Shown one piece after another: positions 4,445 to 8,120 of a stretch of DNA of 48,203 nt; positions within the stretch are counted from its first letter, which is position 1; the number at the start of each line of letters is the position of its first letter. The translations under genes and the position numbers were made by a program. Source of the stretch: Hyphomonadaceae bacterium (lineage in GTDB: Bacteria; Pseudomonadota; Alphaproteobacteria; Caulobacterales; Hyphomonadaceae); assembly GCA_030697555.1 (NCBI GenBank), contig JAUYPV010000027.1:1-48203 (forward strand), in the 5' to 3' direction. The notes beneath the pieces were generated by a model. It was given only the letters and a program-made list of their open reading frames with translations. It did no database searches and was not told the DNA's origin.

Positions 4445-4594
4445 GGTGGCGGCCCTTTGATCAACGCTCACCGCACGAAGTGATCCCCACCCTCCGCAAG
4501 CTTCGCTTGGGAGAAACGGCGCCGAACTGCACCAAATCCCCACATCTCCCAGGCGAAACTCCCACATATTCAAGGTCAAGTCGAAAAAAATAGG

Positions 4595-4602
4595 AAAGTT
4601 AT
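4595..4602. repeat. Left 8-bp target-site duplication of the IS1595-type element
   Basis: AAAGTTAT directly abuts the left terminal repeat and recurs at 7124-7131 outside the right one. Eight base pairs is the duplication length known for IS1595-family elements. On both sides the octamer is embedded in the same 16-bp string, TAGGAAAGTTATCCTA. Confidence 0.7.
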
Positions 4603-4625
4603 CCTAATTGTATACGTGACAAAGC
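4603..4625 (+). repeat. Left terminal inverted repeat of the IS1595-type element
   Basis: The tip CCTAATTGTATAC continues as GTGACAAAGC. Read inward, it matches the right end at 21 of 23 positions. Differences are at G/A (position 8) and G/T (position 14). Confidence 0.8.
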
Positions 4626-4721
4626 ACTGATATACGGGTTTTGACAGGCCGGTGCTTTGAGACGGAAAGGACAATTGGGCGTCGCTCCACTAGGAGGACG
4701 TCATGGCCCAAGGGGCCGCCC

Positions 4722-5498
4722 CTACTCGGACTTCGAGGCTCTCTTCTTCAAAAGAGCCTTCCGCTCAGCTTTCACCGCGCGCCTCGGGGGCTTCTTTGCC
4801 AGCTCAGGCGGGGGCCATTTCCCCAGCTTCCGAAGCTGAGAAACGAGACGCAGGTCTCTCTGCTGCGCTTGCTGAACTTTATCGAGCTGGGATTGTTGCT
4901 CACGAATTTCCCGAACTAGATCGGGTAGTCGTGTCAAGGATGGTATCTGCTTGGCTACTTGCGGCGACAACTGATTGAGCCGCGTGAGTAACAGCCACAC
5001 GAGGCTGTCCGCCAGCGAACGAAAGCGACTGGTTACTGCCTGAATTTCCTTTAGGCCGAGACGAGCCTTCCTCGCCGTGATGAAGAAAAAGGGCTCTATT
5101 TCAGGATACGCGTGACCGTCCTTGTGGCCGACGAACAGGGTCGAATGAGCAATCTGATTGCGGCTCTTTGCTTGGACTCTGGCCTGCTCAAAGAGCATCA
5201 GGCAGTCGGTGCGAACCGGCACCTTGAGCTTGGCTTGGTCCAGCGCGGACTTGAGCACGTCCATGCGTGCATCGAAACTTTTGGGGGTGCTCCAAGCTAT
5301 GTTCGCGGATTGGAGCCGGCCCGACGCGCCTCCTCCCATCGCGCCCGACAGGGCCAGAAAAACAAGGTTCAACTGAAGCTCAACGGTGGCCCAAGCCATC
5401 AGGCATTCGCCAACCGCCTGGTGTCCTTGGTCGAACGCTTGTTTGTTGTCTTTGGAAATGTCTGAGTCTTCCAAGATCGTGGAAAGTCGCTTCGCCAT
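4722..5498 (-). CDS. HEPN-like passenger protein of the IS element, possible RNase or effector
   Basis: The product is 258 aa and mostly helical. An N-terminal helical segment (AVGECLMAWATVELQLNLVF) is followed about 70 residues later by KSRNQIAHSTLF. R113-N-Q-I-A-H118 fits the Rx4-6H motif with a polar residue after Arg, the signature of catalytic HEPN RNases in toxin-antitoxin, abortive-infection and CRISPR-associated proteins. A predicted coiled coil (about residues 192-225, rich in Gln and Leu) and a Lys/Arg-rich tail follow. I start it at the ATG at 5498, behind AGAGGGG; a TTG 30 bp upstream is also in frame. Its start codon overlaps the divergent small gene. No nucleotidyltransferase antitoxin is next to it. 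The HEPN assignment rests on motif and helical layout only. Confidence 0.7.
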   Translation of the reverse strand: MAKRLSTILEDSDISKDNKQAFDQGHQAVGECLMAWATVELQLNLVFLALSGAMGGGASGRLQSANIAWSTPKSFDARMDVLKSALDQAKLKVPVRTDCLMLFEQARVQAKSRNQIAHSTLFVGHKDGHAYPEIEPFFFITARKARLGLKEIQAVTSRFRSLADSLVWLLLTRLNQLSPQVAKQIPSLTRLPDLVREIREQQSQLDKVQQAQQRDLRLVSQLRKLGKWPPPELAKKPPRRAVKAERKALLKKRASKSE

Positions 5499-5649
5499 GT
5501 CCAACCCCTCTAAAGACCCGGACTTCAACGCCGCCCTTCAGAAGATGCTGAAGGCCGAGCCGAAGCAGAACAAAGACCTCAAGCTCGGACCGAAGCGGCA
5601 ACCGAAGCCCAAGAAAGAGCCGAAGCGTTGGCCGTGGGAGCGCGGCTAG
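5497..5649 (+). CDS. Small basic passenger protein (50 aa), function unknown
   Basis: The product begins SNPSKDPDFNAALQKMLK and ends in a lysine-, arginine- and proline-rich tail. The DPDFNAALQKMLKAEPKQNKD part resembles short, uncharacterised alphaproteobacterial and phage proteins of the DFxxxLxxLLxxPPKPH type, recalled from memory. The ATG at 5497 overlaps the start codon of the divergent HEPN-like gene (5498 on the other strand), and the stop shares CTAG with the convergent gene at 5646. GGAAAG lies about 10 nt upstream as a possible ribosome-binding site. Being divergent from a HEPN-like gene, it could be a regulator or antitoxin, but nothing in the sequence proves that. Confidence 0.55.
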   Translation: MSNPSKDPDFNAALQKMLKAEPKQNKDLKLGPKRQPKPKKEPKRWPWERG

Positions 5650-5951
5650 TTGATTCCAGATTTTGAAGAGGTCACACGAGCGCCTTCTTCAATGTTGTCA
5701 AAAAAATCTCTCAGCACAGTGCGCGCCGCTGCGTCCATCGGGTCACCATGATTCGTGACGGGCAGCGCCTTGCTCGAAAGGTCCCGCAATGCCGCTAGCC
5801 GCTCTTTTCCATTCTGCGGGTCCATTCGGTGTGTCGCGACGACTGCGGTCAGGATCGCAACCATTGCCGCAGATTCGGCCGCTAATTCGTTGTAGGCCCC
5901 CACAAGTCTCTCGTGAGCAGCTAGAACTTCTTCAATCGGTGTTTTGGCCAC
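5646..5951 (-). CDS. Helical passenger protein of the IS element, unknown function
   Basis: The product is 101 aa, starting at a GTG at 5951 that follows AGGAG at a good distance. A longer form from 6017 lacks such a site. The sequence is predicted largely helical (PIEEVLAAHERLVGAYNELAAESAAMVAILTA in its first third), acidic overall, with no recognised domain. It is read in the same direction as, and downstream of, the transposase, 95 bp after its stop, so it may share the transposase transcript. Its TAG stop overlaps that of the convergent 50-aa gene in a CTAG tetranucleotide. Confidence 0.6.
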   Translation of the reverse strand: MAKTPIEEVLAAHERLVGAYNELAAESAAMVAILTAVVATHRMDPQNGKERLAALRDLSSKALPVTNHGDPMDAAARTVLRDFFDNIEEGARVTSSKSGIN

Positions 5952-6046
5952 AGCCTTGCTCCTGCAAGAGCGCAGTTCAGGACAAATCCTGATCGGAGTC
6001 GATACCTCGCAAAGCACGCCAGCGCAGGAACGCGCGGGTCAACTGC

Positions 6047-7063
6047 TTAGGCGAGCGAGGCTTCACCAATCCGCCGATACGTCAGGCGCTTGCCGCCTGT
6101 GGCTTGCAGCAGGGCGTTGTGACGGTCGCGATCGTTCCAGCCGAGCGCGGTGCGGCGGTTGTAACGGAAGTCGAACTCGCGGAGGTAGCGGAACAGGTGG
6201 GCTTCGCCACAGTGCTGGTAGATGCCCGTCATGCCGCGCTTGAAGACCGAGAACGTGTTCTCGATGGTGTTGGTGTGCACTTCGCCGCGCACGTACTCTT
6301 TGGACGAGTGATTGACGGTCTCGTGTTCGGCGTACTCGCGGCCCGTGGTGATGTAGAGGCGGGACTCGTCGGTATAGAGCTTCGATTTTCGCGAGGCGTT
6401 CTGCACGAGGATTTTGCGGACCTGATCGACGGTCGCGACACGGACATGGAACGAGCGAACACGCCCACCGCGTTCGACCAGAGCGACAACGGTGCGCTTC
6501 TGGGCGCCACCTGACTTGCCCGACTTTGTAGGCTTGCGGCCTTCCTTCGCACGGCGCGGCGAGACGTAAGGCACGTCACGCTTGCCGATGTAGGTCTCGT
6601 CGGCTTCGATGGTCATGCCTTCGCCACCGAGCGGGCCGGACGAGGCGTTGTCTTCGCCCATGGCTTCACGGATGCGGTGGAGCATGAACCACGCGGTCTT
6701 GTAGGTGACGCCAAGCGAGCGGTGGATCTGATGGGCGCTGACGCCCTTCTTGGACGAGGTGATGAGGTAGGTAGCGGCCAGCCACTTGTTGAGCGGGATT
6801 TTGGAACGCTCGAAAATGGTCTTCACGGTCGCGGTGAACTGTTGACGGCAGGCGTTGCACTGGTAGAGCCCACGGCGCTCGGCGCCTTCCGGATTTGCGC
6901 GCGAAGGATTTGCACGGGCGCCGGTGATCGCCTTGATGTGTTCGGAGGTAGCCCCGCAATGCGGGCACACCGGACCGTTGGGCCAGCGCTGGGCTTCAAG
7001 GTGCTGACGCGCCTTGTCCGGATCGTTGAAGATCGGGTGGGTGAGGGTCATTTTCTCGGTCAT
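6047..7063 (-). CDS. IS1595-family transposase (ISXO2-like)
   Basis: The product is 338 aa. An N-terminal zinc ribbon (C33PHC36 and C69NAC72) precedes an HTH-like segment (VSAHQIHRSLGVTYKTAWFMLHRI). The catalytic domain has the first Asp in IEADETYIGKR (D155), the second in LYTDESRLY (D232), and the third acidic/Asn region in HTNTIENTFSVFKRGM (N265/E268, with the downstream Lys). The FRYLREFDFRYNRR block is typical of ISXO2-like transposases. The gene runs inward from the right end, behind its own promoter and an AGGAG site. No frameshift or internal stop is seen, so it appears intact. Confidence 0.95.
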   Translation of the reverse strand: MTEKMTLTHPIFNDPDKARQHLEAQRWPNGPVCPHCGATSEHIKAITGARANPSRANPEGAERRGLYQCNACRQQFTATVKTIFERSKIPLNKWLAATYLITSSKKGVSAHQIHRSLGVTYKTAWFMLHRIREAMGEDNASSGPLGGEGMTIEADETYIGKRDVPYVSPRRAKEGRKPTKSGKSGGAQKRTVVALVERGGRVRSFHVRVATVDQVRKILVQNASRKSKLYTDESRLYITTGREYAEHETVNHSSKEYVRGEVHTNTIENTFSVFKRGMTGIYQHCGEAHLFRYLREFDFRYNRRTALGWNDRDRHNALLQATGGKRLTYRRIGEASLA

Positions 7064-7081
7064 CGGGCGTCTCCTGCATTC

Positions 7082-7110
7082 TAGATAGAAAACAGGGGAC
7101 GCTTTGTCAA
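7082..7110 (-). promoter_or_regulatory. Sigma-70-type promoter of the transposase
   Basis: Reading the reverse strand, TTGACA (7110-7105) is a perfect -35 box. It is followed after 17 nt by TATCTA (7087-7082) as a -10 box. AGGAG then lies just ahead of the transposase ATG at 7063. The -35 overlaps the right terminal repeat, a common arrangement that lets transposase bound at the end affect its own transcription. Confidence 0.65.
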
Positions 7111-7123
7111 GTATATAATTAGG
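7101..7123 (-). repeat. Right terminal inverted repeat of the IS1595-type element
   Basis: Reading the reverse strand inward from 7123, the tip CCTAATTATATAC continues as TTGACAAAGC. It matches the left end at 21 of 23 positions and contains the transposase -35 box. Confidence 0.8.
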
Positions 7124-7131
7124 AAAGTTAT
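7124..7131. repeat. Right 8-bp target-site duplication
   Basis: AAAGTTAT, identical to 4595-4602, immediately outside the right terminal repeat. Confidence 0.7.
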
Positions 7132-7183
7132 CCTACACCTCCGAAACCGGATTTATACTCCGGGATCAGCAAGGAGGGACAAC

Positions 7184-7972
7184 ATGTCCAATCAACGATC
7201 CCCACGCGAACTCGATCTTCTGAAGAAGGAGGCCGAGCGGCGCATGCGCAGGGGCGACGACCGCATCGACATCGCGGACGACCTTGGCATCTCGGTGTCC
7301 ACGCTCCGCGACTGGGCGGCCAAAGGCGGTTGGCGCAAGAAAGACATTGCCTTCGAACGGAGCGAGGAGCGCGGCCAGGCCCTTCTGGCCCAGATTGCCG
7401 AAACCCAGACCCGGCAGCACGTGGAAGCCGAAGGGCGCGCGGCGAAGGCGAAGGAACTCGGCGACGCCGCCATGAAGGCGATGAAGGCCGCCGATCCGGA
7501 CGGGAGCGGAACGCCTCCCGGAATGGCGGCCCAGCCGGCGCATCAATTGTCGCTGTCGATGGCGTACGCCCTGCTGCAGCAGGGCCGGCTCGACGACGCG
7601 GATCGCGCAGCCCGCTTCGCCCTGCGGTTCGCCCAGGCGCAGAAGGCTACGAACGAGCAGGACAGCGCACAATGGCGTGTTGACCGCGAGCAGATGCTTG
7701 CCTGGTGGAAGCGGAACCGCGACGGCATCCTGTCCTTTCACAAGCACGCCAGCGATGCGATCGGAGATCTGAAATCCCTGACCAGATACCAGCGCCTGGC
7801 GCAGGAAGCTGGCACGTGCCCGACCTGCTCGCGTCCCGCGGATTTCTGGCCCGCCGAAATGAACGAGGTCAGCGAGGCAATGGTCGACCGGATGGAAGAG
7901 AACGAGTTCGCCGAAAAGGCGGAGGAGGCGGAGCAGGAGCAGATCAGACTCGACGAGGAACATGGATGGTAG
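7184..7972 (+). CDS. HTH-domain protein of unknown role
   Basis: The product is 262 aa behind a strong AAGGAGGG site. Residues about 20-50 (RIDIADDLGISVSTLRDWAAKGGWRKK) form a homeodomain-like or terminase-small-subunit-like helix-turn-helix. The middle is alanine- and glutamine-rich and probably helical. A CPTC motif near the C-terminal third suggests a partial metal or redox site, and the tail is strongly acidic. The HTH-GGW pattern also occurs in phage terminase small subunits, but no phage genes are adjacent. A chromosomal DNA-binding protein is the simpler reading. The IS element sits 60 bp upstream and probably separates it from its original promoter region. Confidence 0.75.
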   Translation: MSNQRSPRELDLLKKEAERRMRRGDDRIDIADDLGISVSTLRDWAAKGGWRKKDIAFERSEERGQALLAQIAETQTRQHVEAEGRAAKAKELGDAAMKAMKAADPDGSGTPPGMAAQPAHQLSLSMAYALLQQGRLDDADRAARFALRFAQAQKATNEQDSAQWRVDREQMLAWWKRNRDGILSFHKHASDAIGDLKSLTRYQRLAQEAGTCPTCSRPADFWPAEMNEVSEAMVDRMEENEFAEKAEEAEQEQIRLDEEHGW

Positions 7973-8025: not shown

Positions 8026-8120
8026 GGAGGCAGCAGTGCCGCCGCTGCTGCCGCTGCTGCTGCTGCCCCCCGATCGCGGCGCCGTCGCTGCTGCCGCTGC
8101 TGCCGCTGCCCACGGTTGCT
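8026..8120. repeat. Low-complexity GCC/GCT/CAG triplet-repeat spacer
   Basis: The 271-bp gap before accA holds a run of GCAGCAG, GCCGCTGCT and GCTGCTGCTGC units with short interruptions. It can fold into CAG/CTG-type hairpins. Frames through it give only poly-Ala or poly-Leu and lack ribosome-binding sites, so I do not call a gene. It may be an unstable microsatellite or part of the accA leader. Confidence 0.6.

Follow-up and report, generated by a model that had tools for sequence, protein, structure and literature searches.

An IS1595-type transposon with an exchangeable HEPN-like gene points to a cargo-swapping mobile element in Alphaproteobacteria

Passenger-bearing members of the IS1595 family are known from the ISfinder literature. 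A compact transposon that carries three genes besides its transposase raises the question of what these genes are to the element: a fixed accessory set, or passengers that come and go. One such locus lies in the window analysed here, the whole 48,203-nucleotide stretch of contig JAUYPV010000027.1 from a Hyphomonadaceae bacterium. A complete IS1595-family element occupies positions 4603-7123 and comprises terminal inverted repeats, a target-site duplication, the transposase, and the three other genes. Its left terminal inverted repeat, at the cargo end, is CCTAATTGTATACGTGACAAAGC (4603-4625, plus strand), and its right one, at the transposase end, is CCTAATTATATACTTGACAAAGC (7101-7123, minus strand); the left repeat agrees with the reversed right repeat at 21 of 23 positions. 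The right repeat contains TTGACA, a candidate promoter motif. The 8-bp target duplication AAAGTTAT stands at 4595-4602 and 7124-7131. Because its flanks equal the 4-bp tips of the element, the direct repeat around the element extends to 16 bp and forms a target palindrome, TAGGAAAGTTATCCTA, found at 4591-4606 on the left junction, where the element tip makes up its last 4 bp, and at 7120-7135 on the right, where the tip makes up its first 4 bp. The element ends were found again when no ends were preset, and 1 of 40 shuffles of one control locus gave any match.

The transposase is an intact 338-aa protein of the IS1595/ISXO2 type (6047-7063, minus strand), matching PF12762 DDE_Tnp_IS1595 (1.1e-32) and PF12760 Zn_ribbon_IS1595 (5.7e-11). 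The element thus shows the DDE_Tnp_IS1595 domain with N-terminal zinc ribbon, the 8-bp target duplication, and the terminal inverted repeats that define the family, and sibling elements with empty sites support its borders. The other three genes are an exchangeable, HEPN-like cargo gene of 258 aa (4722-5498, minus strand), a conserved lysine-rich backbone gene of 50 aa (5497-5649, plus strand), and a variable third gene (5646-5951, minus strand) that encodes 101 aa from a GTG at 5951. The frame of this third gene is also open up to a GTG at 6017, giving 123 aa; a family search returned no match, and a distant relative occurs in the G008 element (30% over 70 aa, 4e-07). Downstream of this palindrome lies a chromosomal gene (7184-7972, plus strand) with a weak HTH and terminase-small-subunit-like match (PF10668 at 1.8e-4, 21.6 bits, just below the cut-off of 22). 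An earlier note on this DNA had described an IS1595-type element with defined ends, an intact transposase, and three non-transposase genes, and this description stands. Among the checks that it suggested were a search for further copies and one for empty sites. The element's own genome assembly yielded no further copy, and the unique part of its right flank has no match in the 14 other genomes of the same genus that were searched, so this locus was not seen in an empty state. Sibling elements elsewhere do have empty sites, which support the borders, and comparison of the siblings reveals a constant backbone with exchangeable cargo.

Judged by sequence comparison, the transposase and the 50-aa gene form this backbone, and the HEPN-like gene is the cargo. 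Among five siblings whose transposases are 96-99% identical, 8 of the 10 cargo pairs lack a BLASTP match at E<=0.01, the two matching pairs being L033-L059 (6e-10) and L034-L060 (0.002). Cargo kin are found in other families, as between L035 and L065 (1.6e-12), whose transposases are 64% identical, and between L037 and L066 (5e-20), the latter being a locus where no transposase was seen. In Mantel tests on 16 elements with a transposase, the small gene follows the transposase (r=0.75, p=0.0005), and cargo tracks neither of them; the correlation of small gene and cargo is r=0.07 (p=0.27), and r=0.02 (p=0.43) for the 13 elements left without L032, L033, and L059, both small samples. The mosaic structure is seen in L033, L034, L035, and L060, whose transposase ends are 94-95% identical and are followed by a variable stretch and then by a block of 85-90% identity that stops within about 10 bp of CATG. 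Past CATG comes differing cargo, and the last 24-91 bp at the right end are again shared. Small genes that resemble one another (pN 0.09-0.18) stand beside HEPN-like cargo in L035 and L058 and beside another cargo family in L033 and L059. That related bacteria repeat this layout while their cargo differs greatly points to a cargo-swapping mobile element of a kind not found described. The earlier note had named the joint occurrence of the cargo genes outside any IS1595 element as evidence against its reading, and in some places this does occur: small-gene loci, among them pairs of small gene and cargo, turned up where no intact element could be recognised. One end-like sequence is present at some of them and none at others, and several lie on short contigs.

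The start codons of the 50-aa gene (plus strand) and the cargo (minus strand) overlap in a CATG at 5496-5499. An opposite ATG-initiated ORF of at least 130 aa lies at this exact offset at 60 of 89 distinct small-gene loci (next commonest offset, 5), a count whose small-gene profile drew in part on loci of the first and second sets; the CATG pair is absent at 29 of the 89. The overlap is present in 19 of 20 first-set loci, and at 22 of 34 small-gene loci within a 79-locus sample found by transposase alone. Among the papers listed for start-codon overlap and genes in head-to-head order, none bears on the CATG arrangement, and searches of IMG/VR, plasmids, and phages with the small gene gave nothing useful.

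The cargo of the window carries RNQIAH at residues 113-118, which agrees with the HEPN rule RX4-6H with a polar residue, mostly N, D, or H, after the R, as worded in the part of PMC3710099 that treats the motif. R[NDH]x3H is present in 50 of 60 cargos and in 5.4% of shuffles. Its R and H are invariant in two alignments of chosen rows, one of 17 of the 20 first-set cargos (L032, L033, and L059 dropped as not alignable) and one of 18 rows, made up of the window cargo plus 17 of the 22 cargos from viral contigs (the duplicate L156 and L172, L177, L189, and L217 dropped). Profile searches with the window cargo gave no match in Pfam (E<=5), NCBIfam (0.5), or the PADLOC-DB defence models (1), and 0.28-0.29 at best in PHROGs. 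Its relatives show weak matches to Cthe_2314, RiboL-PSP, and MAE_28990 models and scattered weak PADLOC matches, the best being JetA at 0.0015 for L035. Their best HEPN profile match (0.0038) is no stronger than those to the unrelated P4Ha_N (0.0027) and HCV_NS4b (0.0062); no scanned cargo passes a Pfam cut-off, and the HEPN_Cthe2314 profile gave one match, below its cut-off, in 115 genomes. The AF2 model of the window cargo is mostly helical (pLDDT 79.4, pTM 0.64; pLDDT 48.3 from single-sequence AF2). Foldseek returned nothing at E<=0.001 for this model in PDB or BFVD, the best PDB matches being unspecific helical proteins and the best BFVD match a 159-aa protein (E 3.1e-3, TMt 0.66). PDB sequence searches gave nothing useful, and among 385 genomes of the class the window cargo was found in its own genome only, and searches of genome contigs and plasmids gave nothing useful. 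Assignment of the cargo to HEPN depends on the motif and on weak profile matches, and the fold search did not confirm it; the cargo probably encodes an RNA-cutting enzyme.

How the two overlapping genes relate can be read in several ways. A small ORF that is an artefact, conserved as leader of the cargo or as a stretch antisense to it and yielding no protein, would fit the SD-like motif that precedes only 10 of 60 small genes (20 of 60 cargos; background 8%). Codon analysis disfavours it and makes it highly improbable: differences between seven g4-like elements fall on the three codon positions as 331, 257, and 537, a synonymous excess in the small frame with summed pN/pS of 0.46, and pN/pS is 0.20-0.73 in all pairs compared. 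The small gene is coding, because its relatives evolve under purifying selection. Its product could be the antitoxin of an addiction module, as the earlier note had considered, with the HEPN protein as toxin and the pair stabilising the transposon as Tn3 TA pairs may do. HEPN domains are common TA toxins in the portion of PMC3710099 concerned, a HEPN/MNT pair is known in the Tn3-family TnSod9 from what PMC7157771 gives of it, and the two genes adjoin at 60 of the 89 loci. An antitoxin of a type II system is expected to co-evolve with its own toxin, but the 50-aa gene follows the transposase and, in the small sample available, not the cargo; similar small genes pair with different cargo families, the gene order is divergent and not that of an antitoxin-first operon, and the partner is not MNT. 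The co-variation test thus weakens this reading, which now seems improbable. Slightly less so, if still unlikely, is a 50-aa protein serving as accessory or regulator of transposition beside passenger genes that serve the host in various ways, in which case the HEPN-like motif would mark a helical family without nuclease activity. The link of small gene and transposase, cargos that are not HEPN-like (L033/L059, L124, L134), and the missing family and fold matches of the window cargo agree with it, but 50 of 60 cargos retain the motif despite their high divergence, which argues that the HEPN active-site pattern is under selection. For the element, a mobile role in conflict or defence is plausible.

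Tn7, a DDE element, targets an attachment site upstream of a gene. In two sister genera, elements of the present group sit in a 16-bp palindrome before a gene with a DnaA_C domain, and the palindrome is rebuilt at both junctions. Among 27 g4 and g5 genomes, 7 sites are filled, 13 have the motif once and are empty, and 7 lack the exact motif; joined flanks of siblings equal empty sites without gaps (169/172 and 173/180). The target pattern occurs in 25 of 101 genomes, and its reversed control in 8 of 101. A 16-bp target duplication was considered and rejected in favour of 8 bp, because L063, L064, L065, and L067, with GGCG, GGCA, or GGCT tips, show 8 bp; in CCTA-tipped elements alone, 16 bp is indistinguishable from 8 bp with matching tips. 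The shared site might instead reflect one ancient, vertically inherited insertion, later altered by cargo swaps and by inversions between the terminal repeats. The filled sites do look orthologous in g4 and g5, and the relevant part of PMC3004938 describes IS inversion through terminal-repeat recombination. Yet the window element occupies this palindrome at a different locus, with the canonical site of its own genome empty; another IS1595 subgroup has one junction in the same palindrome (G054, L030); and the empty sites are scar-free, so that a single old insertion appears doubtful. Site preference is the favoured explanation: the CCTA-tipped subgroup, including the window element, would insert into a TAGG-N8-CCTA palindrome upstream of a gene. 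As the palindrome is rebuilt at both junctions, insertion probably leaves the adjacent promoter or operator unharmed.

These observations suggest a scheme in which the mobile backbone of an alphaproteobacterial IS1595 group would be the transposase with a conserved basic protein of about 50 aa. The cargo slot would open at the small gene's own start codon, read on the opposite strand as CATG; the 5' region of that gene may double as leader for whichever gene fills the slot, and the conserved right end would encode the last part of several cargos. Cargo is presumably swapped by recombination within the constant blocks, which leaves the mosaic pattern. The slot would usually contain a rapidly diverging protein of HEPN type. 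This would most likely be a metal-independent RNase directed at phages or competing elements, a conflict gene paying for the transposon's keep. Because both transcripts must overlap head to head, the small-gene transcript could be antisense to the cargo leader and keep cargo expression low. The whole scheme, from the cargo-swapping backbone, CATG slot, and HEPN-type RNase cargo to the palindrome-restoring subgroup, is more likely than not. The broadest version is more tentative, with chances somewhat short of even: IS1595 transposons over many alphaproteobacterial families as a gene-swapping platform, the antisense start codon in the 50-aa gene as entry point for hypervariable HEPN-type effectors, a mobile and diversifying reservoir of RNA-targeting conflict genes, and one branch with site-restoring insertion before a DnaA-domain gene. 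If true, simple transposons would have a new principle of cargo exchange, in which start codons overlapping on opposite strands set the slot; HEPN-like proteins that now lack annotation would be added as a pool, and a DDE insertion sequence would favour one chromosomal address and restore it.

As the earlier note had supposed, a literature search did not find the combination of an IS1595-type element, a HEPN-motif cargo, and a divergent 50-aa partner described. The element shares with the IS1595 family the Zn-ribbon and DDE_Tnp_IS1595 transposase, the 8-bp target duplication, and inverted repeats of about 20 bp, and differs in its constant second gene, the cargo slot opening in the start codon of that gene, the exchange of cargo, and, in one subgroup, the palindromic target. 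The RNxxxH-type HEPN superfamily, as far as the excerpted account in PMC3710099 goes, resembles the cargo in RX4-6H with N, D, or H after the R, helical prediction, and weak model matches, whereas no scanned cargo passes a Pfam cut-off and the fold search gave no match at E<=0.001. Tn3-family transposons with TA pairs likewise carry a HEPN-type gene beside a partner gene; compared with the HEPN/MNT pair of TnSod9, within what the sections of PMC7157771 on it cover, the present element has another transposase family, no MNT, a head-to-head order, and a partner that follows the backbone and not the HEPN-like gene. TnGBS/ISKra4-type elements, in the part of PMC3942029 on insertion upstream of promoters, are also DDE elements with a defined place upstream of a gene; in contrast to these and to Tn7, the element described here has a single transposase and a palindromic target that is rebuilt by its own tips.

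The IS1595-family element at positions 4603-7123 of the window is a modular unit in which a conserved, coding 50-aa gene accompanies an exchangeable cargo and insertion occurs at a palindromic target. The earlier description of this element is borne out: its terminal inverted repeats agree at 21 of 23 positions, AAAGTTAT lies on each side, the transposase is intact and three further genes are present. It is found as one copy in its own genome assembly (4.98 Mb, 176 contigs). The 50-aa gene (5497-5649, plus strand) and the cargo gene (4722-5498, minus strand) both start in the CATG at 5496-5499. Element DNA, mostly its transposase part, matched 28 of 101 genomes, the window's own counted, and seven elements were the first complete relatives retrieved. 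All eight elements, window included, share the order transposase, stretch with small genes, ~50-aa gene and cargo gene; in each, the ~50-aa gene is antisense to the remaining genes, encodes an SKDDKKFNDTLKRMMDxKPKPxED-like sequence and has an ATG overlapping that of the cargo.

The 50-aa gene is coding. Across seven g4-like elements (g4 and g5 being two sister genera), its differences by codon position number 331, 257 and 537 (1079 codon pairs), and pN/pS is 0.46 when summed (pairs 0.20-0.73); the three remaining groups give 0.43-0.55. A profile of this gene matched 17/299 genomes of the order and 2/385 of the class, and a wider profile matched 25/385 class genomes (E<=0.01) in 24 genera. In a phylum sample whose share of other classes is not shown, the wider profile matched 6/200 genomes, all of the window's class; the window's genome is among the matches in every search. 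The small protein of the window has a PHROG match at 0.17 only, and a small protein at L034:2777-2950 (plus), a locus fetched for comparison, weakly matches a different entry, phrog_3775 (labelled transglycosylase, 0.0015).

The cargo, by comparison with the backbone, is highly variable. Transposases of five g4 siblings (L033, L034, L035, L059, L060) are 96-99% identical, and that of L032 is 88-89% identical to those five, whereas the five siblings' cargos match by BLASTP (E<=0.01) in only 2 of 10 pairs, and those two matches are distant (27% and 33% identity). DNA comparison delimits one constant block of ~1.1 kb, comprising end and transposase, before a variable stretch, and another of 57-163 bp, reaching the CATG or near it, before the variable cargo; the right end is common over 24-91 bp, in some pairs scarcely beyond the inverted repeat. 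A common C-terminal tail, for example PPQSSGE, is found in several cargos. The third gene (5646..5951, minus strand) is dispensable, since it is missing from L059, where 45 bp separates transposase and small gene. At the cargo end of some elements, a further small ORF with an ITPEMIEAG-like motif lies antisense to the cargo, overlapping or near its 3' end (L037:1799-2050, L065:3100-3318 and L069:2818-3063, plus; L035:5457-5684, minus). In Mantel tests, of modest power because cargos are few and strongly diverged, transposase and small gene are correlated (r=0.75, p=0.0005), while transposase and cargo give r=0.04 (p=0.37) for all 16 elements and 0.13 (p=0.17) for 13. The earlier suggestion that small gene and cargo form an addiction (toxin-antitoxin) pair is disfavoured because the two do not co-vary (r=0.07, p=0.27, all 16 elements; 0.02, p=0.43, 13 elements).

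The overlapping CATG recurs widely. It occurs in 19/20 loci of the first set, the exception (L062) having ATA for ATG in the small gene, and in five of six more transposase loci with a distant small gene (absent in L016). In the second set, 28 new loci from the wider profile (L113-L140; L127 and L129 alike, L133 probably a false hit), 17 combine CATG with an opposing ORF of 130 aa or more, 18 have an IS1595 transposase within the ~3-kb locus, and 12 have transposase and CATG pair together. In a third set of 79 IMG/VR loci, picked by transposase alone (L155 and L156 alike; many contigs cut), 34 carry the small gene past the transposase and antisense to it (E<1e-3), of which 22 have a CATG pair with an ORF >100 aa. 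The pooled 133 loci hold 92 small genes, 89 of them distinct: 60 show CATG, 4 another offset, 18 no opposite 130-aa ORF and 7 no ATG. The commonest other offset was seen 5 times among pooled small-gene loci, and some cargos also have in-frame starts upstream of the predicted CATG start.

Elements of g4/g5 sit, in both orientations, in TAGG-AAAAATAT-CCTA or TAGG-AAAGTTAT-CCTA upstream of a Bac_DnaA_C-domain gene (PF08299; tested at 1.4e-14 in L033 and 6.8e-12 in the window's own genome, the neighbour at remaining sites being identified by flank likeness). The motif TAGGANANNTNTCCTA was found in 25/101 genomes, against 8/101 for the reversed control. By our reading of the 27 g4/g5 genomes among these 101, 7 sites are filled (G017, G026, G037, G038, G052, G054, G059), 13 are empty with the motif once and 7 lack the exact motif; filled sites usually have two exact copies, except G054 (three) and G038 (one exact, one variant). 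Empty sites of siblings support the borders, joined flanks matching without gaps at 169/172 (L034), 173/180 (L060) and 160/180 (L035) positions, and with gaps at 127-132 of 153-175 for five other elements. In the window's own genome the canonical site upstream of the DnaA_C-domain gene is empty (L094, G000:C46:742-757); it has 27 bp, TAGGAAAGTTATCCTACACCTCCGAAA, in common with the right junction of the window element, which precedes another gene. Window positions 8033-8111 form a G+C-rich repetitive stretch matching 12 other genome places.

In the eleven tabulated elements with CCTA or CGAC tips, window included, tips and target arms are identical at 4/4 positions, or, at one end of L031 and L036, at 3/4. 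Insertion in this branch therefore restores the palindrome on either side of the element, which we infer spares a promoter or operator. In L063-L065 and L067 the tips agree with the arms at 0-1 of 4 positions, and the eight elements tabulated from other families give mixed values (0-4 of 4); duplications look unrelated in L069, L115, L118, L121, L130, L136, L140, L145 and L152, and L122 has TAGG and CCTA at its flanks. At L030 (G054:C14, about 2400-2430) the target palindrome also contains one junction of an IS1595 element from another subgroup (tip CCTAATATTATACTTGACGTACCC); in G054 the canonical locus appears divided over two contigs. In L029 (G008:C1, about 1190-1250), the ends of two IS1595 elements, each from its own subgroup, meet back to back at TGGG-AAAATGTT-CCCA, another palindrome that matches the tips.

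Searching for exact 8-bp duplications with 14/20 end matches recovered an element in 16 of 34 tested loci and none in 18, several loci being cut by contig or locus ends. The stretch fetched around small-gene loci L142-L144 and L146-L149 contained no IS1595 transposase; in L141 one lies 2.8 kb away. Loci without an intact element show one end-like sequence at some places and none at others, and may be decayed or settled copies. One truncated element (L058/L075, G052:C2:1242538-1243749) keeps small gene and cargo, with transposase and one end not seen; the site's left flank is duplicated, adjoining an intact site.

The cargo had earlier been called HEPN-like; its HEPN-type motif is present, while a Foldseek search gave no confirmation of the fold. 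The AF2 model (18 sequences) is mainly helical (pLDDT 79.4, pTM 0.64). Profile matches among cargo relatives are weak (HEPN_Cthe2314 0.0038, HEPN_RiboL-PSP 0.13, HEPN_MAE_28990 0.19, PADLOC RTasHEPN 0.017), and unrelated families match similarly strongly (P4Ha_N 0.0027, HCV_NS4b 0.0062, PADLOC JetA 0.0015); for these reasons the name HEPN-like is used. Non-HEPN cargos also exist (L033 and L059, one family; L124; L134). By eye, the CATG-slot cargo of L124 (G342:C4) looks like an HNH-type endonuclease (CIFCGENANSQEHIW); its small-gene match counts a TGA inside. An HEPN-like cargo would act as an RNase, possibly in conflicts, with antisense control and an accessory role for the small protein.

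Judged by title and abstract opening, the arrangement has no described counterpart in the literature searched (on passenger-bearing IS1595 elements, HEPN, Hyphomonadaceae, cargo, palindromic targets and overlapping starts), most subscription papers lying outside it. R113 and H118 are invariant in 17/17 aligned first-set cargos (of 20; L032, L033 and L059 not alignable) and in 18/18 rows comprising the window and 17 of 22 viral-contig cargos (without duplicate L156 and L172, L177, L189, L217). Of the 22 third-set CATG-pair loci, 19 have an R-x4-H motif whose R is followed by a polar residue. R[NDH]x3H occurs in 50/60 CATG cargos versus 5.4% of shuffled cargos, and the looser R[NDH]x3-5H in 51/60 versus 13.9%. 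The predicted active site fits the rule given for HEPN proteins in PMC3710099, RX4-6H in which R is followed by N, D or H.
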